Of a stretch of 53,402 nucleotides of DNA, positions 11,128 to 48,656 are shown in pieces. The stretch covers positions 1 to 53,402 of IMG/VR virus record IMGVR_UViG_3300015264_000030. One strand, given 5' to 3'. Made by a program: the position numbers and the translations under genes. How positions within the stretch are numbered: position 1 is the first letter of the stretch; each line of letters opens with the position of its first letter. Source of the stretch: a virus. Below the pieces are notes generated by a model. The model was not told the origin of the DNA and ran no database searches. It saw only the letters and a list, made by a program, of their open reading frames with translations.

Positions 11128-11137
11128 GTGTAATTAT
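11128..11137 (+). promoter_or_regulatory. Candidate late promoter motif GTGTAATTAT
   Basis: Exact consensus copy 19 nt after the preceding stop; followed by CAGGG and the ATG of the protease-scaffold gene at 11146. No -35 box. Confidence 0.55.
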
Positions 11138-13388: not shown

Positions 13389-14564
13389 ATGCAAATCCAA
13401 CTTAAAAACACGCCAGAGCAAATCGAGTTAATCAAGGCTATGGGTTCGTCCAAGCAGTCTGTCGCTCGTGAAGCTACCGAGGCCATCGCAGCGTTCCTCG
13501 CACCAGTTCTCAAGAAAGTCTTGATGACTGCTGGAACTGCGTCCACAATTTATCGTGATATTGAATACGATGAAGATTCTGACCCATCCATCCCACTCGA
13601 CTTGTTTTACAATGAAGGTGCTGGATATGTTTCTGTATGGAGCCAGTCACAAGCTGGTGGTCTTCCAACCTCGCAAGTTGCAGGTATGGCTGAAATCAAG
13701 TTCGGAACCTACCGCCTTGACTCTGCCGTATCCTTCAATAAGAAATATGCGCGCAAGAGCCGTTTGGATGTTGTTTCCAAGGCTATTGAACGCATGGTCA
13801 ACGAAGTCCTTATTAAACAGGAACGTAATGCTTGGGCTGTTATCTTGAAGGCATTGGCCGAAGCTTACACCCCAATCTACGGTGCTGGTCAAACTGTCAC
13901 GACCCAATACGGCCACACTCTTGCTGCTGCACAGGCAGGTAGCTTTCTGTTGGCAGACTTGAACAACTTGATTGTTCGTATCAAAAGAATCAATGAATCA
14001 TACAGCGCAAATACGCCTGTTCAGCCTTACTCACACGGTATTACCGACTTATATGTTTCCCCTGAAATCAAGGCGATGATTCGTGCGTTTGCTTATAACC
14101 CAATTAACACAAGCTCGTCTGACTCGACAGCTATCGGTGGTATTCGTGGTCAATTCCTTTCTGACAATCTCCGCGACGAGATTTTTAGAAGTGCAGGTAT
14201 GCAGAGTATCTACGGTGTTAACATTGTTGAACTCGTCGAATTCGGTGGAAACCAGAAGTATAACGTCTTGTTTGACCAGTTCGCTAAGTCCGGTAATTCG
14301 GCTTCGCAAGTTCAGGGTTCAAATGGTGCGGCTACTTGGTCAAGCTCATCCACACAGCAAGTCTGTGTCGGTATTGACAATACTCGTGGTGCGTTTGTTC
14401 GCCCTGTTGCAGTTCAGGCTGAATCTGGCGGCACGTTCTCCGTTCTTCCTGATGGTCAATTCGATATGTATGGTTCCCGTGTCCAGAAGGTCGGCTTCTA
14501 CGGTTTCCTCGAAGAAGGCCGCGTCTGTTTGGACGCTCGTTCGACGGTCGGTATTGTTGTCTAA
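13389..14564 (+). CDS. Major capsid protein (HK97-like)
   Basis: A 391-aa capsid protein candidate, with the length and position expected of an HK97-fold major capsid protein. A helical N-terminus (QIELIKAMGSSKQSVAREAT) is followed by an E-loop/P-domain-like region (YDEDSDPSIPLDLFYNEGAG, then KFGTYRLDSAVSFNKKYARK) and a long helix (VVSKAIERMVNEVLIKQERN). The C-terminal part (FDMYGSRVQKVGFYGFLEEGR) resembles the A-domain/P-domain end of other capsid proteins. Expression signals are the best in the window: a strong AAGGA site, distinctive codon choice and an intrinsic terminator directly after. It has few SG/TG dipeptides (two SG), unlike the appendage proteins. Confidence 0.9.
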   Translation: MQIQLKNTPEQIELIKAMGSSKQSVAREATEAIAAFLAPVLKKVLMTAGTASTIYRDIEYDEDSDPSIPLDLFYNEGAGYVSVWSQSQAGGLPTSQVAGMAEIKFGTYRLDSAVSFNKKYARKSRLDVVSKAIERMVNEVLIKQERNAWAVILKALAEAYTPIYGAGQTVTTQYGHTLAAAQAGSFLLADLNNLIVRIKRINESYSANTPVQPYSHGITDLYVSPEIKAMIRAFAYNPINTSSSDSTAIGGIRGQFLSDNLRDEIFRSAGMQSIYGVNIVELVEFGGNQKYNVLFDQFAKSGNSASQVQGSNGAATWSSSSTQQVCVGIDNTRGAFVRPVAVQAESGGTFSVLPDGQFDMYGSRVQKVGFYGFLEEGRVCLDARSTVGIVV

Positions 14565-14661: not shown

Positions 14662-15012
14662 ATGCCAAGAAAATCCAAAAAACTCGATTCTTTGAAACAG
14701 ACACATGGTAAAGTCAATACCTTTGAAGTTACTTCCCTTGACCAAATTTGGGGCGGTGGCGATAATTCCAAATTCGGCACAATGGATGAAAATGTATTTC
14801 AAAAAATGCTCACTGACTTCACTAGGGCTGATTTGGAAAATTATGCGCGCAAGCATGGGAGCGTTATTGTTGAAAGTTCTGAACGTATTCGTGCGGAATT
14901 GATGAAAGTTTTCCGTAACTATGTTTCTCTCTTGCAGAAACCAACTTCCAAGCCTCAACCAAGGCAAGTCGTTTCACCAGAAGCGCAGCGAGTTCTTAAC
15001 GAAGGCCGTTAA
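14662..15012 (+). CDS. Small conserved head-region protein of unknown function
   Basis: A 116-aa basic, mostly helical protein starting MPRKSKKLDSLKQTHGK. The central part (GGGDNSKFGTMDENVFQKML, then TRADLENYARKHGSVIVESSERIRAEL) resembles small proteins found beside the capsid gene in many large phages: a SAP/HeH-like helix-extended motif (LENYARKHG...RIRAELMKVF) that could bind nucleic acid. It could be a head completion or DNA-associated virion protein. It has its own TATAAT and a capsid-like ribosome site. No SG enrichment. Confidence 0.6.
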   Translation: MPRKSKKLDSLKQTHGKVNTFEVTSLDQIWGGGDNSKFGTMDENVFQKMLTDFTRADLENYARKHGSVIVESSERIRAELMKVFRNYVSLLQKPTSKPQPRQVVSPEAQRVLNEGR

Positions 15013-15062: not shown

Positions 15063-15572
15063 ATGGCGTTCGATTCCACAATTAGGTTAAGGCAAATGAA
15101 TCAGGCAGAATTGTCTGGTTTTCTTATCCCAATTATTCTCACTTATTTAAGTAATACTGGCAATTTAAGTGGAGTTTTTTATCCATTATTAAATAATCCG
15201 AGCGGTTATCTTCAATCTGGCGCATTTATATCTCAGGTTGATTTAGATAGTGCGATTACCCAAGCTCTTTCTTTTGTATCCAATAATTTTTATCCTGATT
15301 CAAACCCTAGTGGATTTTTAAGAGCTTCGGATATTACTCATGCTACAAATTCTTTTTTGGTAAATTGTTCATCTGGCGTTGATACACAATTTGTTAATTT
15401 TCCATTTCCATTTACAGGAATTCCTAATATAAATTGTTCATTTCTCAATAATATTGATAATAACATTTATTATTTTGGCATCTCAGGTGTAAATACTACT
15501 GGATTTTATGTGAATTATAGCGATACGGTTGCCAAAACTGGGTATAAACTAAGCGTAATTACAGACTTATAA
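15063..15572 (+). CDS. Short fibre/adhesin with shared N-terminal anchor
   Basis: A 169-aa protein whose first 18 residues (MAFDSTIRLRQMNQAEL) nearly repeat those of the large collagen-like fibre at 1022. The middle has fibre-type motifs NNPSGYL and SNPSGFL. Residues about 95-169 (DTQFVNFPFPFTGIPNIN..., INTTGFYVNYSDTV-type end) look like a small beta-sandwich of the H-type-lectin sort: V-F---F---P followed by TGF-V-FS and a short hydrophobic strand. The protein at 20825 ends the same way. Seven SG and four TG dipeptides in 169 residues. It could be a receptor-binding tip or a chaperone-like short fibre. It abuts the next gene with one nucleotide between. Confidence 0.6.
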   Translation: MAFDSTIRLRQMNQAELSGFLIPIILTYLSNTGNLSGVFYPLLNNPSGYLQSGAFISQVDLDSAITQALSFVSNNFYPDSNPSGFLRASDITHATNSFLVNCSSGVDTQFVNFPFPFTGIPNINCSFLNNIDNNIYYFGISGVNTTGFYVNYSDTVAKTGYKLSVITDL

Positions 15573-15573
15573 A

Positions 15574-17352
15574 ATGAAAAGTTTATTCAAACAAATTCAG
15601 GCGGGTGAATTAAATATTACTACTGGAAAGGTGGGAATAGGAGTCATCAATCCTCAATATATTTTAGATATAAATGGCTCTATCGGTAATTCCCTAGGCA
15701 TGAATACGGGTAGTTATATTGATTTAGGGAATAGTATTTTTGTTGATAACACTGGCGCTATTTCTTTTGACTATAATCAAAAAATTTTATTTGGTAATTG
15801 GTCTGGTAATGGATTTTCTCTTGATGGGCCTATTACAATAAGTGGAAATAATGTTATTACTGAAGATGAGACTGGTCAATTTTATTCATCAAGTAATCCA
15901 TCTGGATTTATTACAGGAAACCTGAATCTTTATTCTCTTGATTCCAAAGTCGTTCACATTATAGGAAATGAAATAATTAGTGGGAATAAAACTTTTTCAA
16001 GTCAAGTTACGGCCAATGGAGTTAAGTCAAATGTATTTCAAGATTCTTCTTCAATCAACGGTATTATTCTTAATTTGGGGATATTGACTACTGGTAATGA
16101 TTTATCTACTGATATAACAATAGATATGGCTCATGGTAGATTATCTAGGACGGGTGTTGTCCATCTTGATTGGTTTAATAATAAATTAAGTGGAAATTGG
16201 ACTGCTGAATCTTTAATTATCAGTGGTCAACCAGTATTAACTGGTTCAACCATTTCATTTATTACCACTGGACAAACTGGACAATTTGCATCTAATAGTA
16301 ATTTGTCAGCAACAGGAAGTTCTTTATCAACTTGGACAGGAAATTCTACTGGACTTTACTATCCTCGTAATTCTAATCCTTCTGGATTTATAACTAGCGG
16401 TCAAACTGGAATATTTGCTATAGATTCTAATGTAGTGCATATTACAGGGGATGAAAATATTCATGGTCTAAAGACATTTTCAGCGATTCAATCCGATTAT
16501 TGGACGGACATATACAATAATAAAGTTTCAATCGGTGGGTATCTTATAGATTCCAATAATAATATTTCTGTAGCTTGGGACGGCAGAGTATTACAAGATT
16601 CAAATATTACAACAAGTTTAGATTGGAGCAACAGAACATTACAAGATGGAAATGGAATAATAAGTCTAGATTATAATAATAGAAGATTACTAACAACTGA
16701 TGGCAATCCAATTCTTGATTGGCAAAATGGATACATAAGTGTTTTTCAAAATCTAAATGTAGATGGAATCGCTAGTTTTTCAAATCAACTATTGATTTCT
16801 GGTAATGATATTACTACATATTTTTATCCTAAAAATAATAATCCTTCTGGTTATATTACGAGCGGTCAAACTGGAATATTTGCTTCTACTGGAAACTTAG
16901 CTTCAACTGGAAATTTTATTTCTTCTTGGACGGGTGTATCAACTGGACTTTACTATCCTCGTAATTCTAATCCTTCTGGATATATTACGAGCGGGAATGG
17001 GTGCATTATAATCCAAAGCCAAAAAATAAATTTCGCCCAGACTGGAAACTATAGCCTATTCACAGTTCCAAGCGGTCAATTATTTTTGATTGATACAATG
17101 GAAGTCATAACGACCAATATCACCTCCCCGAATCAGCCGCCATATGTTTCATTCGGAAATACATCCAGTTTTGGAAGTTATACTTCTTCAATACAGACCA
17201 CTTCAAATTCCCAATATGCTCGTCATATTTTTGACAATCCGCAGAACGCGATTATTTCTGGAATCATTTTGACCGCATCCATTACAGCCGCCTCGACAGC
17301 GACCGTGCAATCTGGATATTTATTATACAAGGGATTTTTTACTAATTCATAA
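15574..17352 (+). CDS. Long tail-fibre-like protein with repeated NPSG(F/Y)ITSGQTG modules
   Basis: A 592-aa fibre candidate. The N-terminus KVGIGVINPQYILDINGSIG (about 19-38) is the common beta-helix module of phage fibres (GIGT-P-Y-LDV-G). HIIGNEIISGNKTFSSQ and HITGDENIHGLKTFSAI (about 130 and 290) are copies of another well-known fibre repeat. YYPRNSNPSGFITSGQTG and variants recur several times. The last 110 residues differ (QTGNYSLFTVPSGQLFLID...) and form a probable receptor-binding or trimerisation tip. Near-identical DNA in the repeats would favour recombination and length change. The ATG follows the previous stop by one nucleotide and depends on coupling. Confidence 0.75.
   Translation: MKSLFKQIQAGELNITTGKVGIGVINPQYILDINGSIGNSLGMNTGSYIDLGNSIFVDNTGAISFDYNQKILFGNWSGNGFSLDGPITISGNNVITEDETGQFYSSSNPSGFITGNLNLYSLDSKVVHIIGNEIISGNKTFSSQVTANGVKSNVFQDSSSINGIILNLGILTTGNDLSTDITIDMAHGRLSRTGVVHLDWFNNKLSGNWTAESLIISGQPVLTGSTISFITTGQTGQFASNSNLSATGSSLSTWTGNSTGLYYPRNSNPSGFITSGQTGIFAIDSNVVHITGDENIHGLKTFSAIQSDYWTDIYNNKVSIGGYLIDSNNNISVAWDGRVLQDSNITTSLDWSNRTLQDGNGIISLDYNNRRLLTTDGNPILDWQNGYISVFQNLNVDGIASFSNQLLISGNDITTYFYPKNNNPSGYITSGQTGIFASTGNLASTGNFISSWTGVSTGLYYPRNSNPSGYITSGNGCIIIQSQKINFAQTGNYSLFTVPSGQLFLIDTMEVITTNITSPNQPPYVSFGNTSSFGSYTSSIQTTSNSQYARHIFDNPQNAIISGIILTASITAASTATVQSGYLLYKGFFTNS
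16348..16386 (+). repeat. Direct repeat, copy 1 (39 nt)
   Basis: Identical to 16942-16980; encodes the TGLYYPRNSNPSG motif of the fibre protein. Confidence 0.9.
16396..16419 (+). repeat. Direct repeat, copy 1 (24 nt)
   Basis: Identical to 16861-16884; encodes SGQTGIFA. Confidence 0.9.
16861..16884 (+). repeat. Direct repeat, copy 2 (24 nt)
   Basis: Identical to 16396-16419, within the same fibre gene. Confidence 0.9.
16942..16980 (+). repeat. Direct repeat, copy 2 (39 nt)
   Basis: Identical to 16348-16386, 594 nt downstream in the same frame. Confidence 0.9.
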
Positions 17353-17356
17353 AATT

Positions 17357-18820
17357 ATGAGCGTGTTTATAGGAGGATATTTTGGAGGATATAAATTTTC
17401 GTTAATTAGCGCAAACGCTCCTTCATTGATACTCAATACATCTGGTTCAATAATAACATCTGGGCATTTGATAGATGCTAATTTCATTACAACAACTTAT
17501 AGTAGAGTTATATCTGGAACACAGTATTTAGTTCAAGTAGTTCCTCAACAATATAACTTTTGGGGGAATACTCCGATTGTTAATTTATCAACGGATAATA
17601 CTGGAATCGCAACCATTGATAATCTTGGGAACGTAAGTTATGTGAATACTGGACATTTTAATGTAATAGCAAATACAAATTCTAATTCTTATTATAGTGG
17701 TCAAACTGCTATGTTGCCATTGACTAATATAAGTGGGGGAAGCGGATTAAGTTCTGTAAGCGTATTTGCTCCAGACGCAATTAGCATATCTAATCACGTT
17801 TTAATCATTTATAATACTAATTCTAACGATAGCATTAACTTAAAAAATTATTATACGGGTCACAGACCACTATTTTCAGGAGCGAATATTTTAGGTATTT
17901 CGTGTCCGTCTGGTCAAGAAAGCATATCTTCATCTGGATTTACGGGAAGCATAAGACAGCCGATAATAAATTACCTTACTGGAGTCTCTGGAACAAAACA
18001 GATACGTTATGCCGTTATGATGTGCGATATTCCAACTAGAATATCCGATAATGCACTGGCTCCTTCCATATTTTTCCCATATGGATATAGTGTATCTTAT
18101 GAACTTTATCTTTCTTATTGGAGATTAGGATTGAGAAGCGGATATGATTATAACCAGCAAAATAATCACTTTAATTTGGCACAATTCCAAAATAATACCA
18201 TTTTGACTTCATATATCAATTTCGGTTCATATAAAGATTGCACTTCATATATTGATAAAGTCACCTCAAATCAAACAGGAATTTATTTAACTGGTTCGCA
18301 AAATACTGGATATTATATCGAAGATATGGGGGCTTTTATCGGTTCTCTTACATATTTTTCGGGAAGAAATCTGCAACCATTGATTGAAGCTTTCCCATCT
18401 GTCAATTATACTTATCATTCAAGCAATCAATCTCATATAAATACTGGAAATAATTTAGCTGGATATTGTTCTTGGGGCAATGATGGTGGAATGGGCCAGT
18501 ATTATGCTATTGACGGAACTGTCAAATGGGGTCAGAATAATAACTGGTATCTAATCTTAACGGTTGATAGTTTTAATGGACAAAGAAATGGTGGAGGAAA
18601 TTTCATTGATTGGTTTAGTAGCGGGGCTTTTGGTGGAACTGGATATAATAATTGTCCAGTTGGCGCAGTTGGAAATGTCGAAGAACCTTTGCTTGGTCAT
18701 TCATGTCTTTCGGGATATTTTAATTTATGGCAAACTGGTTATCCATTTATTGAATGTGCTTGGCAATCAAGGCAAACGCCTTATTTTGCTGCATTTGGTG
18801 ACCCATTTTGTGTGATATAA
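17357..18820 (+). CDS. Virion-associated protein: Big2-like domain plus gingipain/caspase-like (TIGR03790-type) domain
   Basis: A 487-aa protein. Residues about 24-125 look like a Big2 immunoglobulin-like domain (STDNTGIATIDNLGNVSYVNTG). Residues about 137-487 match the pattern I know from TIGR03790, a family related to gingipain/C25 caspase-like folds: LIIYNTNSNDSINLKNYY (149-166), an I-YAVMM-DIPTRI strand (216-229), DNALAPS (231-237), LAGYCSWGNDGG (367-378), WYLILTVDSFNG (397-408), and the end with GAVGNVEEPLLG (436-447), GYPFIECAWQSRQTPYFAAFGDP (461-483). Candidate catalytic Cys/His residues (C371, H360, H448) are not assured. The gene lies among fibre genes, so I infer a virion enzyme or adhesin acting on host surface protein. 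The N-terminus has no signal peptide. Confidence 0.65.
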   Translation: MSVFIGGYFGGYKFSLISANAPSLILNTSGSIITSGHLIDANFITTTYSRVISGTQYLVQVVPQQYNFWGNTPIVNLSTDNTGIATIDNLGNVSYVNTGHFNVIANTNSNSYYSGQTAMLPLTNISGGSGLSSVSVFAPDAISISNHVLIIYNTNSNDSINLKNYYTGHRPLFSGANILGISCPSGQESISSSGFTGSIRQPIINYLTGVSGTKQIRYAVMMCDIPTRISDNALAPSIFFPYGYSVSYELYLSYWRLGLRSGYDYNQQNNHFNLAQFQNNTILTSYINFGSYKDCTSYIDKVTSNQTGIYLTGSQNTGYYIEDMGAFIGSLTYFSGRNLQPLIEAFPSVNYTYHSSNQSHINTGNNLAGYCSWGNDGGMGQYYAIDGTVKWGQNNNWYLILTVDSFNGQRNGGGNFIDWFSSGAFGGTGYNNCPVGAVGNVEEPLLGHSCLSGYFNLWQTGYPFIECAWQSRQTPYFAAFGDPFCVI

Positions 18821-18830
18821 GTGTAATTAT
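18821..18830 (+). promoter_or_regulatory. Candidate late promoter motif GTGTAATTAT
   Basis: Exact consensus immediately after the previous stop; only 4 nt before the ATG at 18835, so transcripts would be leaderless. Confidence 0.55.
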
Positions 18831-18834
18831 TGTT

Positions 18835-19602
18835 ATGAATGATGCTTTTAGAGAATCTGATACGATATTGTTCCGTAAATCTGTGACATTTCAAACTGGT
18901 TTTGGAATTATAGCGGATGAACCTTTTAACGTGGGTTCTTTGACCACTACTGGTTCTTTTCTTAATACTTATAATCAGATTAGGGCTTATGGGGGTATTA
19001 GTGGAACTGGTGGTTTTATAACAACTGGACAAACTGGAAATTTTTATCCATCTTCCAACCCCAATAATTACATTGATAATTCTGTCTTTAACGGAGATGG
19101 GAATCTTGTGACAATAGGAGGCGATGGCACTCAAGATGGCGTAGGATTTTTCTACATACTAAACTGTCAAGGAATAGGAGTTCTTAGTGCCGTGCAAAAT
19201 GCGTCACTCCCCGATATTGATTTCTTTAACGACCAATTATTGCAAGGAGGATACTTTGCAGACCCAAGTGTCCTAACTTTAGACTGGAATACTAAAGTTC
19301 TAACGGGTGGGGCATGGACGGCTCAAACGGGGTTTAATGTAGGGGGGTCAAATGCTATGACGATTTCTCAATATAGGGCTGGAACGATAAATATACCTAC
19401 TGCCACAACAAGTAAATTTGTGAATTTTTCTTCAAATTTTACGGGCATAAATTATGCAGTAAGTCTTACTTTCGACTCTAATCTTGCAACAGTGAATATG
19501 GCTTCATCAACAAGTAAAACGCTTAGCGGATTCACAATAGGACTTAATGCCGCCGTAGTAGGAGGAGTAAATATTGATTATATGGCTTTAATTTATAATT
19601 AA
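18835..19602 (+). CDS. Fibre-like structural protein
   Basis: A 255-aa protein. The start is the ATG at 18835 (MNDAFRESDTILFRKSV) rather than the TTG at 18808, because the latter lies within the previous gene and before the promoter-like motif. TTGQTGNFYPSSNPNNYI (about 66-83) is a copy of the fibre repeat seen in the gene at 15574. The C-terminal part (TTSKFVNFSSNFTGINYAVSL, then SKTLSGFTIGLNA) resembles the H-lectin-like ends at 15063 and 20825: V-F---F---- followed by GF-I. It is a probable appendage or receptor-binding component. Confidence 0.6.
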   Translation: MNDAFRESDTILFRKSVTFQTGFGIIADEPFNVGSLTTTGSFLNTYNQIRAYGGISGTGGFITTGQTGNFYPSSNPNNYIDNSVFNGDGNLVTIGGDGTQDGVGFFYILNCQGIGVLSAVQNASLPDIDFFNDQLLQGGYFADPSVLTLDWNTKVLTGGAWTAQTGFNVGGSNAMTISQYRAGTINIPTATTSKFVNFSSNFTGINYAVSLTFDSNLATVNMASSTSKTLSGFTIGLNAAVVGGVNIDYMALIYN

Positions 19603-19615
19603 ATCCTAAATTTAA

Positions 19616-19621
19616 TATAAT
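19616..19621 (+). promoter_or_regulatory. TATAAT box before the glycosyltransferase gene
   Basis: TATAAT between AAATTTAA and AATTCA, 6 nt before the ATG at 19628. No good -35 box. Confidence 0.35.
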
Positions 19622-19627
19622 AATTCA

Positions 19628-20284
19628 ATGAAAGCTCTTGCAATAGTATATGTAAAAGATACTAATGACATTCTACCTAGATGTTTGGAGGCGATAAAAA
19701 GTCAAACATATAAAGATTTCTCATTGGTTATACATGAAATGAAACCTATTCATTTTACGCATAATCAAAGTATAAATGGTTCTGAAAATGTAGTAAGAAA
19801 TAGAAATTATGTCAGAAAAATGGCTCTGGCTTCTGACGCTGAATATTTTATATGGATAGACGGTGATATAATTATCCCACCAAATACATTTGAAGATTTC
19901 ATTGATATATCCAAAAAACATGGGGAAAAATTATTAGGCGGATGGTATAAGGCAAGATATGGCGACATTTATGTTTCTGGAAGATGGGATGATAATGGAC
20001 TTTTAATAAAAACAAACCAAGTCCAAGAGGGAATAACTTGGTCTCATTTGATAGGCATAGGCTGTTCGATGATTCATCGTTCCCTGTTGGAAAAGCTTGA
20101 GTTTAGGACTGGATGCGACCAGCTCTCAAAAGATGAAAATGGTTTTACCTATTATGTGGGAGATTGTCTGGCCTTTTGCGAGGATTCAAGAAGACTTGGA
20201 GTTCTGCCAAAGTTGGTCGGGTCAATAGTTTGCGAACATATTCACGATAATCAAGACGGACATAAATTTTTGAAATCATCTTGA
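19628..20284 (+). CDS. Glycosyltransferase family 2-like (GT-A fold)
   Basis: A 218-aa enzyme candidate. The N-terminus KALAIVYVKDTNDILPRCLEAIKSQTYKDF is the usual GT-A opening (strand, then L-SI/QTY). A DxD metal/sugar-nucleotide motif lies at D78-G-D80 (YFIWIDGDIIIPP). GIGCSMIHRSLLEKLEF (about 140-156) and YYVGDCLAFCEDSRRLG (about 177-193) fit the acceptor-side motifs of family 2 enzymes, with ED as a possible catalytic base. It has no membrane segment, so it probably acts in the cytoplasm. Its place within the tail-fibre cluster suggests that it modifies virion proteins or host surface sugars. It ends with TGA. The protein contains only one SG dipeptide, unlike its structural neighbours. 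Confidence 0.8.
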   Translation: MKALAIVYVKDTNDILPRCLEAIKSQTYKDFSLVIHEMKPIHFTHNQSINGSENVVRNRNYVRKMALASDAEYFIWIDGDIIIPPNTFEDFIDISKKHGEKLLGGWYKARYGDIYVSGRWDDNGLLIKTNQVQEGITWSHLIGIGCSMIHRSLLEKLEFRTGCDQLSKDENGFTYYVGDCLAFCEDSRRLGVLPKLVGSIVCEHIHDNQDGHKFLKSS

Positions 20285-20484: not shown

Positions 20485-20823
20485 ATGGCAAATTCTTTCG
20501 ACATTTGTATCGAACAGGGAGCCTCGCTGAATATTTCGCTGGTAGCCAGTGACTCAAGCGGGAACGCTATGAATCTGTCTGGTTATAGTGTTAGGGGTCA
20601 AGTAAAATATAGTTTTGGAAGCACGGGAATCATTCTGAACTTATCTCCAAAAGTTGACACAAGTTTCATAAGTGGAATTATCAATATTTCCGTCCCACCA
20701 GAAAATACGAGCGGACTGCCAATTACCAAAGCAGTCTATGACATAGAGGCTTTCAATAGTGGGGATTATTGTTTCAAAGTTATTAAAGGATACGCGAATA
20801 TTTTTCCGCAGGTTTCTTTCTAA
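20485..20823 (+). CDS. Small baseplate/tail beta-domain protein (BppU-N-like)
   Basis: A 112-aa protein beginning FDICIEQGASLNISLVASDSSG, then MNLSGYSVRGQVK and YDIEAFNSGDYCFKVIKGYANI near the end. This layout (QG-S-----, L-GY-----, YDIE----G------G----P-V) matches the small N-terminal beta-sandwich of phage baseplate upper proteins and related virion proteins. It stands alone rather than fused to a fibre. The downstream gene starts in a TAATATG junction and is likely co-translated. The role is inferred from this resemblance and context. Confidence 0.6.
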   Translation: MANSFDICIEQGASLNISLVASDSSGNAMNLSGYSVRGQVKYSFGSTGIILNLSPKVDTSFISGIINISVPPENTSGLPITKAVYDIEAFNSGDYCFKVIKGYANIFPQVSF

Positions 20824-20824
20824 T

Positions 20825-21214
20825 ATGGATATTGATGTTACAGTTAATACACAACCAATCAATGTTTCTGCAACGGTTTGTCCAGCAGTAAATATCAATG
20901 TTTCCACAATTCCCTCTTTTAATATTGAGGTTGGTATTAGAGGAATTCAAGGGCCTCCGGGTTCTGGTTGCTCTGGTTCATCTACCGGAGTAAATTTCCT
21001 CTACAATATCCCTAGTGGATTTGATAATTATTTGATTGGATTTCCTTTGAGTTTTTCTTCAATTCCTTTTGTTGAAACTACGTTGGAATTGCCCTCCGGC
21101 TCGAACAATTTATACACTTTCGCTACTCAAAATATCACGACAACTGGCTTTAATGTGGTATTTTCGGAGACAATTCAAGAAACTGGCTTAATTCTCAATA
21201 TCAAGTGTAATTAA
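20825..21214 (+). CDS. Short fibre/adhesin with collagen-like hinge and H-lectin-like tip
   Basis: A 129-aa protein. The ATG at 20825 is preferred to 20759 because it follows the previous stop in TAATATG and removes a 65-nt overlap. The N-terminal 45 residues are a repetitive beta strand region (INVSATVCPAVNINVSTIPS). A short collagen-like hinge GIRGIQGPPGSG (about 38-49) follows. The C-terminal domain (FLYNIPSGFDNYLIGFPLSF, then ITTTGFNVVFSETIQETG) is related to the end of the protein at 15063. The layout of anchor, collagen-like hinge and small globular tip is typical of short tail spikes or fibres. Confidence 0.6.
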   Translation: MDIDVTVNTQPINVSATVCPAVNINVSTIPSFNIEVGIRGIQGPPGSGCSGSSTGVNFLYNIPSGFDNYLIGFPLSFSSIPFVETTLELPSGSNNLYTFATQNITTTGFNVVFSETIQETGLILNIKCN

Positions 21215-45037: not shown

Positions 45038-46222
45038 TTATTTCTTTTTGACAATGGTATAAAACTCGATTTCTTCCCAAAAACTAGGAGAATCAATGAC
45101 TTTTTGATATTCTTCGAGATTTTGAAGCGGAGTGTCTTTTTCGACAGCAGCTTGACTTGAATACATTTTATTCTTAGAAGCGGTTAATTTAGAAGAACGA
45201 TAATATAAATTAGAAGTATCTTTTCTCAAAGTTTCTACCATGTCTTTAGGGGATTCTTCAATTCGATTGATTATACCGTATTCATAATATTTGATTTTAA
45301 GTTCGTTAATTCTTTCTTGAGAAAGTGACGAAATCAAAATAAGTTTTACGCCAGTGGATTCCAATTCAGATAAGAAATCCTTATGGTCGTTCTCTGTTAT
45401 TTTGAAAGCGAGCATTTGAATATTTTGTTTGAATTGATGGATTATATTCAAATTTATTGGTTTATCTACGACGATAATGGATTTTCTATATTGAGCTAAA
45501 AGATGAAATAAATCTTCTTCTTTCATATCTGGCTTATCCGCTCGAATTTCTACCAATAATTCAGGATTAAAAATCAAATTTCGATGGTCTGGAATACATT
45601 CCTGAATCATAAAACTAGAATATTTTTTGCCAAAGAAAAGTGAATCAAATGGAATTTTATAATCAATATTTAATAATTTCAAAATCGCAGAGGCTATTTC
45701 CTCTGGCTTAATCATATTGATTGTCTTGGGATTTTCGTCATTAGAGAATGATGGTTTTTTCTGTTCGGTTCTATCGTAAGACGAAATAAAAATCTGTTTT
45801 TCTGGCGACCCAAAGTAAGGTCTGTCGCATCCAATAAAATTATTCGTGAAAATGCTTACGAATGGAATGTCAAATCCGCCAGCCAAGTGAGTTGGAAAAC
45901 CATCGGAACCAAAATGTAGTATTGAGTTTTGAATTATGTAAGCAACTTGATTAAGGTTTGCCGCCCCTTTTGCGTTAATACAATTAGAGAAATTTCTATC
46001 TTTTTGTCCACCAATTTGAACTATGCGAATTCCAGCCTCTTGCAATGGAAGCGAAATCATATTGATTACATCTTGAAGATAATCATAATTTTTTGCTGTT
46101 CCTTGGCTATCAGAATGAAAGGTGATATACTTCTCAATGGGGAGAGGGAAAAATGAAGTATAAATATACGGTTTTCCGATTTTTGCTCCACAATTTGCTG
46201 CGTATGTTTCTAAAGGGTGCAT
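45038..46222 (-). CDS. C-terminal half of a GT9-like glycosyltransferase plus unknown domain
   Basis: A 394-aa protein. Residues about 30-140 match the second Rossmann domain of GT9 (heptosyltransferase-type) enzymes: KYITFHSDSQGTAKNYDYLQ, AGIRIVQIGGQKDR and the donor-binding signature HFGSDGFPTHLAGGFDIP (103-120, with D107 and H112). No first domain is present here. That half lies at the end of the preceding gene in the same frame, separated only by two TAA codons. Residues about 200-394 are an unrecognised alpha/beta and helical region. It probably works with the upstream protein in sugar transfer; which sugar is not visible. Confidence 0.65.
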   Translation of the reverse strand: MHPLETYAANCGAKIGKPYIYTSFFPLPIEKYITFHSDSQGTAKNYDYLQDVINMISLPLQEAGIRIVQIGGQKDRNFSNCINAKGAANLNQVAYIIQNSILHFGSDGFPTHLAGGFDIPFVSIFTNNFIGCDRPYFGSPEKQIFISSYDRTEQKKPSFSNDENPKTINMIKPEEIASAILKLLNIDYKIPFDSLFFGKKYSSFMIQECIPDHRNLIFNPELLVEIRADKPDMKEEDLFHLLAQYRKSIIVVDKPINLNIIHQFKQNIQMLAFKITENDHKDFLSELESTGVKLILISSLSQERINELKIKYYEYGIINRIEESPKDMVETLRKDTSNLYYRSSKLTASKNKMYSSQAAVEKDTPLQNLEEYQKVIDSPSFWEEIEFYTIVKKK

Positions 46223-46225
46223 TTA

Positions 46226-48154
46226 TTATTGAAATTTCAAATCGCTTTTATCTTCGCTATTATGTGTGTATGTCCAAATTCTCTGAGTATTAACGTGGGG
46301 TAAATATGCAATATTAAAATATCCTTTATGGTCTGATTTCCCTTCAAGCCATAAAATATTATCCATAATTTGATTATATTGAATCCATTTGTCAACGAAT
46401 GGATTTCCGTCTAGGATACTGCGATATTGTGGCTGGGTTGCCACATAAAGTGTGTATTCGGGATAACGCTTTTTGATTGATTCAAATAAGCTGGTAATCG
46501 AATAAATATCTTTTTCATGTTCGGGCATAACAACAAGGACTCTGCCTTTATCATTTTGATTTAAGAAATCTTCAAATTTTACTCCACCAGCCTTTTGTTC
46601 CTCGATTGTCTTAAAAGCAACTTGACGAAAATATTGTTCAATTTGTTGACGAGGCAATTCTTTATTGATTCGTGCCATCCAATGTTTATGTCCTTCATCA
46701 TCTTTATCCACCTCTTTTCTTCCAAGGATTTTGTGATATAATTGCGTAATCCATTCTGAATCATCTGTTATTTCTGGCATTGCATAATACGGGTCTGGAT
46801 TAACTTTAACCGGCTCAAAAATAGAATAATCTTCGACTTTCGGTGATTTATCAATAAAGTCTTCCAAATATTTCCCAATAACTTCAATAGAAAAATTATC
46901 AATGACCCATTGACGGGACTTCTTTCCCATTTCTTTTCTTGTTTCGGGCTTCATTGCGAGGACTTTATTCAACTGCTTGCAAATTGAATTTGGATAGGTG
47001 CTTGCCTTAATAAACATCGTATCTGGTTCGCGGTATTCGCTCCAATCAAGGGGCAAAGAACCGGCTCCATCTTCACAAGAATCTTCTCCGCAACTATAAT
47101 TTGTCACCAATGTAATTAACTCCGTCAATTTTGCTTCTTGAATCGGAATTTCCTGACCACCGGAAGTAAATGGATGACAATAAACATCCATCAAATTATA
47201 AACTTCATTTAATTGCGATTCATTGACTCCAAATCCCGGCGATGTTGTAACTTGACTATTCTTGCCTTTGCAGTATGGACAATCTTCTTCGTGATTTGTG
47301 AAATTTTTGATTTGATATTTCCTACAATTACGACAAACATAAGTGGTAATAATATCAGAAATGGATATTTCGTGTTCTTCGCAGAGTTTTTTTATATTCC
47401 AGCCTTCGTTCCAATGGGTATGTAGAAGAAGTTTAGTCTTCAATGATGGATTATTCTGCTTGAACATCTTGAATCCCTTGATAAGATTTGGAACACTTTT
47501 GCGTAATTGATTGCGAAATACAAAGCCAATTACAAAGGTATCTGGGGTGATGCCATATTTTTGTCTTAAAATTTCTCTTTTTGATTTTTTAATCTTAAAG
47601 AAATTCTTGGTATCCAGTGAACCCCTGACTGTTTTGACGTGTTTATGACCCTGTGTATGCAAAGCCTTTGTAGCAAAATCGGCCCAACTCCAGAAATTCT
47701 TTGATTTCTTCGCTGCTAAAACGGCCTTATCGAGAATTGGCAAAGAATCAAGGGTCGTCCATAACGCGCATCCGATTTTATCAAACCAAGGGCGTTGTAG
47801 AGCATAGTCAATTCCACAAATATCTTGAATCGCAATATAAACATCAGGTTTAATTTCCGCAATAGCTTCGTCAATAGCAAACATTCCATATCCAGCCATT
47901 CTTGAAAGTCCATCCCAATTTTTTGGGTCATTTTGGTTGCGGAGAGCTTCAATTTTTTGTGGTTGAATTGTCCCGATGGTCTTCCACGGAGTTCTGCTCA
48001 ATTCTGGACTTCCAGCCATAGAACCTACTGCAAGATTGATAAGTTCATATTTATTTGTATTGTGCAAATACTCAAAAATATTACGAGCATTTTTACCAAA
48101 ACCCGTCATTGCCAACGGGAAGTCGGTATGAATCAGAACCTTTTTCTTTACCAT
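46226..48154 (-). CDS. Fused glycosyltransferase: GT4 with zinc-ribbon insert, DUF4214-like linker, and N-terminal half of GT9
   Basis: A 642-aa protein. The start at 48154 (MVKKKVLIHTDFP) is used rather than 48166 because it gives the TAATATG junction with the gene upstream. Residues 1-435 are a GT-B/GT4 enzyme: VLIHTDFPLAMTGFGKNAR at the start, FVIGFVFRNQLRKSVPNLIKG (207-227) and DVYCHPFTSGGQEIPIQEAK (323-342) as donor-site motif. A zinc ribbon (C274-x2-C277, C292-x2-C295) is inserted in the second domain. Residues about 467-520 (ITQLYHKILGRKEVD...) resemble DUF4214. Residues 536-642 (KGRVLVVMPEHEKD...) match the first domain of GT9 enzymes. The rest of GT9 is in the next ORF, in frame after TAATAA. 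Confidence 0.75.
   Translation of the reverse strand: MVKKKVLIHTDFPLAMTGFGKNARNIFEYLHNTNKYELINLAVGSMAGSPELSRTPWKTIGTIQPQKIEALRNQNDPKNWDGLSRMAGYGMFAIDEAIAEIKPDVYIAIQDICGIDYALQRPWFDKIGCALWTTLDSLPILDKAVLAAKKSKNFWSWADFATKALHTQGHKHVKTVRGSLDTKNFFKIKKSKREILRQKYGITPDTFVIGFVFRNQLRKSVPNLIKGFKMFKQNNPSLKTKLLLHTHWNEGWNIKKLCEEHEISISDIITTYVCRNCRKYQIKNFTNHEEDCPYCKGKNSQVTTSPGFGVNESQLNEVYNLMDVYCHPFTSGGQEIPIQEAKLTELITLVTNYSCGEDSCEDGAGSLPLDWSEYREPDTMFIKASTYPNSICKQLNKVLAMKPETRKEMGKKSRQWVIDNFSIEVIGKYLEDFIDKSPKVEDYSIFEPVKVNPDPYYAMPEITDDSEWITQLYHKILGRKEVDKDDEGHKHWMARINKELPRQQIEQYFRQVAFKTIEEQKAGGVKFEDFLNQNDKGRVLVVMPEHEKDIYSITSLFESIKKRYPEYTLYVATQPQYRSILDGNPFVDKWIQYNQIMDNILWLEGKSDHKGYFNIAYLPHVNTQRIWTYTHNSEDKSDLKFQ
47270..47335 (-). 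other. Zinc-ribbon insertion within the GT4 domain
   Basis: Encodes C274-RN-C277 and C292-PY-C295 with a 14-residue gap, a typical zinc ribbon. It interrupts the GT-B fold between the strand KLLLHTHWNEGW and the donor-site region. Confidence 0.65.
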
Positions 48155-48155
48155 A

Positions 48156-48656
48156 TTAAATTGCATCTGAGGACACTGCGCCTCTGGTGAATTGCGATTG
48201 AAGTGCGAAGATAAGATATTCCCTAATTAAACGTCCTTCGGGAAAAGTGATTCCAAGATATAAACTATTTTTTGAAGTGGAGTCTTGCTTGTCAGCGATT
48301 GAAATACTGAAAGAGAAACCCCTTTGAGTTGGTTTGCTAACGTCATCGTTAGATTTATTCATCCAAGGTTCAAATTTAATTGTCTTGATAGATTTGTCGC
48401 TATCGTGAACTGTTGAAAATGGCCTATTTCTATCTAAACAATCAAGAATCGCTGCTACCTCGACTTGGCCTAATTTGATATTAACGTGCTTTGTCGGGTC
48501 ATTACGACTATCCTTGAATGAACCAACGGATTTTTCTGCATCCCAACCAGCTTGTTTAATTAGAGTTGCGAAAATCGTCCCGTCTTTGTCGGATTGGGAG
48601 AAGGAGCAGGCAAAACCAGTGTTGTTTTTGTTGGGATGATAAATGTGGATTGGCAT
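48156..48656 (-). CDS. Conserved phage protein, possible ssDNA/RNA-binding
   Basis: A 166-aa protein (MPIHIYHPNKNNTGFACSFSQSDKDGTIFATLIKQAGWD...). GFSFSISIADKQDSTSKNSLYLGITFPEGRLIREYLIFALQ near the end is a beta-hairpin followed by an amphipathic helix, as in PC4/whirly-type single-strand nucleic-acid binders. VAAILDCLDRNRPFSTVHDSD (about 67-87) is another well-preserved-looking stretch. It sits in an operon with a glycosyltransferase and a small duplicated-domain protein. Function not established; binding is a guess from fold pattern. Confidence 0.45.
   Translation of the reverse strand: MPIHIYHPNKNNTGFACSFSQSDKDGTIFATLIKQAGWDAEKSVGSFKDSRNDPTKHVNIKLGQVEVAAILDCLDRNRPFSTVHDSDKSIKTIKFEPWMNKSNDDVSKPTQRGFSFSISIADKQDSTSKNSLYLGITFPEGRLIREYLIFALQSQFTRGAVSSDAI

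Follow-up and report, generated by a model that had tools for sequence, protein, structure and literature searches.

Gingipains (family C25) and separases all belong to peptidase clan CD. TIGR03790 is an uncharacterised and widespread bacterial family, one criterion for which is that the host genome carries an exosortase; we found no open-access literature naming it and, as far as titles and abstracts tell, none connecting phage tails with domains of the gingipain or C25 type. Ig-like domains in phage fibres, on the other side, are represented by the short tail fibre of PDB entry 9cuy and by the tail-fibre family phrog_12846. The window that we analysed, a viral record of 53.4 kb (53,402 nucleotides) taken at its full length, contains an intact ORF of 487 codons (17357-18820, + strand) which appears to combine elements of both: a fibre-like N-terminal part and a C-terminal TIGR03790-type domain. 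The gene starts directly after a fibre-like gene with BppL_N repeats (15574-17352, + strand; Pfam PF18338, E = 3e-7), runs in the same direction as its neighbours and is AT-rich (34.5% GC), as is the rest of the island in which it lies. A preliminary description had proposed a gingipain- or caspase-like domain of this type joined to a Big2-like domain in a probable virion protein, and had offered three functions for it: cutting host surface protein, processing fibres, or acting as an adhesin that has lost catalysis.

The intact frame and the assignment of its C-terminal part to TIGR03790 were borne out. Profile and motif comparisons establish homology between the phage domain (residues 140-487; 17774-18817, + strand; delimited with NCBIfam, our own HMM, AlphaFold and Foldseek) and TIGR03790 over the whole domain. 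The NCBIfam model matches residues 147-314 with E = 7e-12 and 45.5 bits, which does not reach the curated cut-off of 67, and in a genome-level search the match covers profile positions 2-225 of 316. Members of the family were collected by means of a DNA probe for GYxSWGSND, which we take to be the family motif and which yielded at least 80 loci in bacterial and archaeal genomes; all ten of the genomes tested behind these loci were above the TIGR03790 cut-off, as was one viral contig (L211, discussed below). The phage protein scored 56.0 bits against an HMM of 52 members from bacteria or archaea in which it was not itself included, and the best of 200 shuffled sequences 2.2. The C-terminal half of the domain taken alone scores more weakly (E = 0.007), and GYCSWG-ND, GAVGNVEEP and GDP stand there in the order of the family. 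The alignment as a whole spans residues ∼147-485, continuing into the final residues of the protein, and N153, P226, G392, E443, P444, D482 and P483 correspond to positions invariant in the 52 sequences. Two of these residues, E443 and P444, end the GAVGNVEEP stretch (residues 436-444; 18662-18688, + strand; family motif GxxGxVxEP), while GDP (residues 481-483; 18797-18805, + strand) is, according to the family and C25 alignments, a motif found in C25 too. The phage copy could not be placed in the family tree because its branch is too long. Among loci from Verrucomicrobiota (L225-L253) we also noticed further TIGR03790 subfamilies in which the SWGSND loop is altered (YxGWY, MMGA) and a nearly invariant Ser is kept.

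A relation to C25 and clan CD, also put forward in the preliminary description, is supported by structure prediction. An AlphaFold model of the domain only, made with 37 sequences, had a pLDDT of 70 and a pTM of 0.80; a model of the full protein, for which 52 more diverse sequences were aligned, reached pLDDT values of 82-98 for residues 141-220 and stayed below 50 for residues 1-127 and 376-397. Since for both models the gingipains RgpB and Kgp were the top Foldseek matches in the PDB (best E = 2e-5 and 2e-6, probability 1.00), followed by separases (probability up to 0.98), the TIGR03790-type domain is predicted to adopt a Rossmann-like C25/clan-CD fold. TM-scores to the gingipains were modest, at 0.40-0.53 with an rmsd of 7-9 Å. 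Profile-profile alignment of TIGR03790 with C25 by hhalign was collinear and not significant, the C25 model of Pfam (PF01364) matched none of 37 members (the window protein and 36 relatives), and nothing in the BFVD library of viral structures matched at E ≤ 0.001. Weak hits of the family profile among PDB sequences, to pertussis toxin S1 (35 residues, E between 0.07 and 0.2) and to a lyase (E about 0.6), were judged to be due to chance, because no fold search backs them.

The mapping of the C25 active site onto TIGR03790 thus rests on motif order together with fold similarity. In 29 C25 members, all from Bacteroidota, x-G-H-G closes one strand and T-C the strand after it; TIGR03790 has, in the same order of elements, Y-x-S-W-G and then [VHT]-S. 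The phage equivalent of the YxGHG His loop, judging from the family and C25 alignments, would be GYCSWGND (residues 369-376; 18461-18484, + strand), with Trp373 in place of the His; that of the TC nucleophile loop is probably LTVDSFNG (residues 401-408; 18557-18580, + strand), with a Ser where C25 has its Cys, a placement based on motif order and the family alignment with a register uncertain by about 5 residues. Neither loop contains a His, and their sole Cys (C371) is part of the strand. Judged by its sequence and the order of its motifs, then, the phage domain is without the Cys-His dyad. The sampled members of the family do not conserve one either, their best Cys column being only 63% Cys and their best His column 73% His among the 52. 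H360, C371, C433, H448 and C450, which had been suggested as candidates for the dyad, all exist, but none of the five falls on a C25 His or Cys site and none is conserved in the family, so that this part of the preliminary description is not supported. The phage copy retains the structural Gly, Pro and GDP residues of TIGR03790, whereas several polar residues that are nearly invariant in bacteria are replaced or missing: Asp at 247, Arg at 286, the Ser of SND, Ser at 400, Arg at 404 and Gln at 413 (phage numbering). Some of these losses could be register errors, since residues 377-413 are aligned uncertainly and modelled with low confidence.

The N-terminal part is more difficult to assign. 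Residues ∼46-130 (17492-17746, + strand) probably form an Ig-like, Big_2-like beta domain, as weak sequence matches and strands in the low-confidence model suggest. The Big_2 assignment proper is weak, the Pfam model (PF02368) giving E = 0.05 and 14.0 bits for a gathering score of 22.8. Similarity of the N-terminal stretch to Ig-like parts of phage fibres is suggestive, with weak matches to 9cuy (E = 9e-4) and to phrog_12846 (E = 0.02). No Sec signal peptide was seen, by eye, at the N-terminus.

The placement among fibre-like genes was supported by the surroundings. Comparison by tblastn and through the ORF lists of related viral loci delimits a variable fibre island (15063-20284, + strand) between two conserved genes of the virion block, 14662-15012 and 20485-20823, whose homologues also flank a variable stretch in related viruses. 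These flanking genes adjoin with nothing between them in two loci (L013 and L014), two others (L007 and L008) have fibres of more than 1000 amino acids in the equivalent island, and the island of L012 (13707-18914) has several genes, one of which is a fibre with a GDSL/SGNH-esterase-like domain (E = 2.5e-4); two others are beta-helix-like and have N-termini resembling signal peptides. The neighbours in the window are fibre-like as well, with BppL_N, H-lectin-like and collagen-like features, and a further fibre-like gene lies just downstream (18835-19602, + strand), its likely start being the ATG at 18835 according to the ORF list and the related loci. The ends of genes 15063-15572 and 20759-21214 each resemble an H-type lectin (E = 0.003 and 1.6e-4). 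Three genes of the window resemble glycosyltransferases: 19628-20284 (GT2, E = 2e-7), 45041-46222 (GT9-like, E = 1e-3) and 46226-48166 (GT1-like, with DUF4214), and the first of them sits inside the fibre island. No homologue of gene 17357-18820 or of this glycosyltransferase was found by tblastn in 80 related viral loci, and the context cannot therefore be checked by conservation; nor did TIGR03790 occur in the 80 whole records, many of which are fragments, so that its absence there is not proof. The capsid-type gene (13389-14564) shares 88% identity with its counterparts in other uncultured viruses, has relatives on contigs of up to 203 kb and finds no match in the collection of annotated phage records. 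Right after the capsid gene, genes that look by eye like homing endonucleases are present in L002 (11283-13001) and L009 (11214-12098). As for expression signals, GTGTAATTA occurs seven times on the + strand of the window (at 11128, 15046, 18821, 20320, 21205, 36236 and 49904) and never on the - strand, with 0.58 occurrences expected by chance; most of the copies precede a late gene start by 14-27 bases. In a set of ten related loci that includes two near copies, the + strand has it 23 times and the - strand never; it may be a promoter or leader motif of late genes. A Shine-Dalgarno-like sequence within 21 bases before the start was seen for 8 of the 28 main genes of the window.

When 2.9 million viral contigs were scanned with guidance from the profile, one further TIGR03790 protein turned up, on the unrelated contig L211 (IMGVR_UViG_3300014208_000091); the scan depends on conserved peptides, and divergent copies would escape it. 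This protein has 1199 amino acids, a signal peptide and a score of 149 bits, and its contig carries DNA polymerase III genes. Its place in the tree is close to copies from Bacteroidota and archaea, so that it looks like an acquisition separate from that of the phage copy. Single-sequence searches of phage records, plasmids and viral contigs gave no match, and DNA-pattern scans of viral sequences returned 12 and 3 stretches, none of them TIGR03790 by profile. One match of these scans, with E = 0.03, was judged to be a chance one.

How might such a protein be used? The explanation that we favour, and to which we would give about an even chance, is an exchangeable virion fibre or adhesin whose TIGR03790 head, with a C25-like fold and no dyad, would bind the host surface. 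A beta-rich, probably Ig-like stalk would carry the C-terminal domain, the dyad-less clan-CD domain would serve as the binding head and contact a host surface protein or glycan through the cleft where related peptidases cut, and the gene would be a cassette of the island, exchanged with other fibres. As the cutting residues are missing, gripping seems more likely than cutting, and of the three functions first offered it is the adhesin with lost catalysis that fits best, the idea of a peptidase being unsupported in a domain with no dyad. That the phage made the head of a receptor-binding fibre from a clan-CD fold already dyad-less in bacteria, and that it trades this head for other fibres as a cassette, is a more tentative proposal. 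That the protein is a genuine cysteine peptidase of C25 type, its dyad displaced to a pair of the five Cys and His residues named above, is very improbable: the C25 fold is predicted and Cys and His do occur in the domain, but these residues are neither conserved in the family nor located in loops equivalent to GHG or TC, and Pfam's C25 model recognizes no member.

An enzyme acting through other residues deserves more thought. Ser405 together with Asp376 or Glu443, for instance, might cut a host surface protein or another polymer at entry. The invariant polar residues of the bacterial family (N, R, D, S-N-D, S..R, Q and E) are mostly found just after strands, as active-site residues would be, the phage retains N153, D323, N375, D376 and E443, and the SGNH-like domain on a fibre of L012 lies in the equivalent island. 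Yet the phage copy is without the invariant polar residues at 286, 404 and 413 and without the Ser of SND, and the sources found describe no activity for TIGR03790; we consider an active virion enzyme unlikely. Rather unlikely too is a gene that has no part in the virion and is merely located in the late operon, its product being, for example, cargo acting in or on the infected cell. The glycosyltransferase gene at 19628 indicates that not every gene of the island is structural, and the secreted-type protein of L211 stands outside any fibre context, but the Ig-like N-terminal part, the lack of a signal peptide and the position between fibre genes all speak against it.

If the adhesin reading is true, a peptidase-like fold joins the known tips of phage fibres. 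TIGR03790 gains a fold assignment (C25/clan CD) and, with it, grounds for regarding its members as something other than Cys-His peptidases, two elements that make its function testable. The phage copy, lacking several conserved polar residues, offers a natural contrast for finding the residues that matter.

Several known systems can be set beside the protein. The fibres represented by 9cuy and phrog_12846 are weakly like its residues ∼59-191 or 69-159 and, as far as the matches show, are without a TIGR03790 domain. L211 has in common with it the presence of TIGR03790 on a viral record; it differs in its signal peptide, its Cys-rich flanks, its nearby replication genes and its lack of a fibre context. 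Separases provide the next-best fold match, with no detected sequence similarity and a dyad that the phage domain does not have. Relative to the TIGR03790 proteins of Acidobacteriota, Verrucomicrobiota, Armatimonadota, Poseidoniales-type archaea and others, the phage copy is set apart by a score below the curated cut-off, a branch of 3.9 changes per column, and a fibre-like N-terminus with no signal peptide, while at ∼18-25% identity it keeps all main motifs in order. Finally, although, when set beside C25, it lacks the Cys-His dyad, is 8-11% identical and has no PF01364 match, it is the gingipains (RgpB, 4ief; Kgp, 4rbm and 6i9a) that give the best fold match and share with it the motif order GH/SW, TC/S, QS and GDP.
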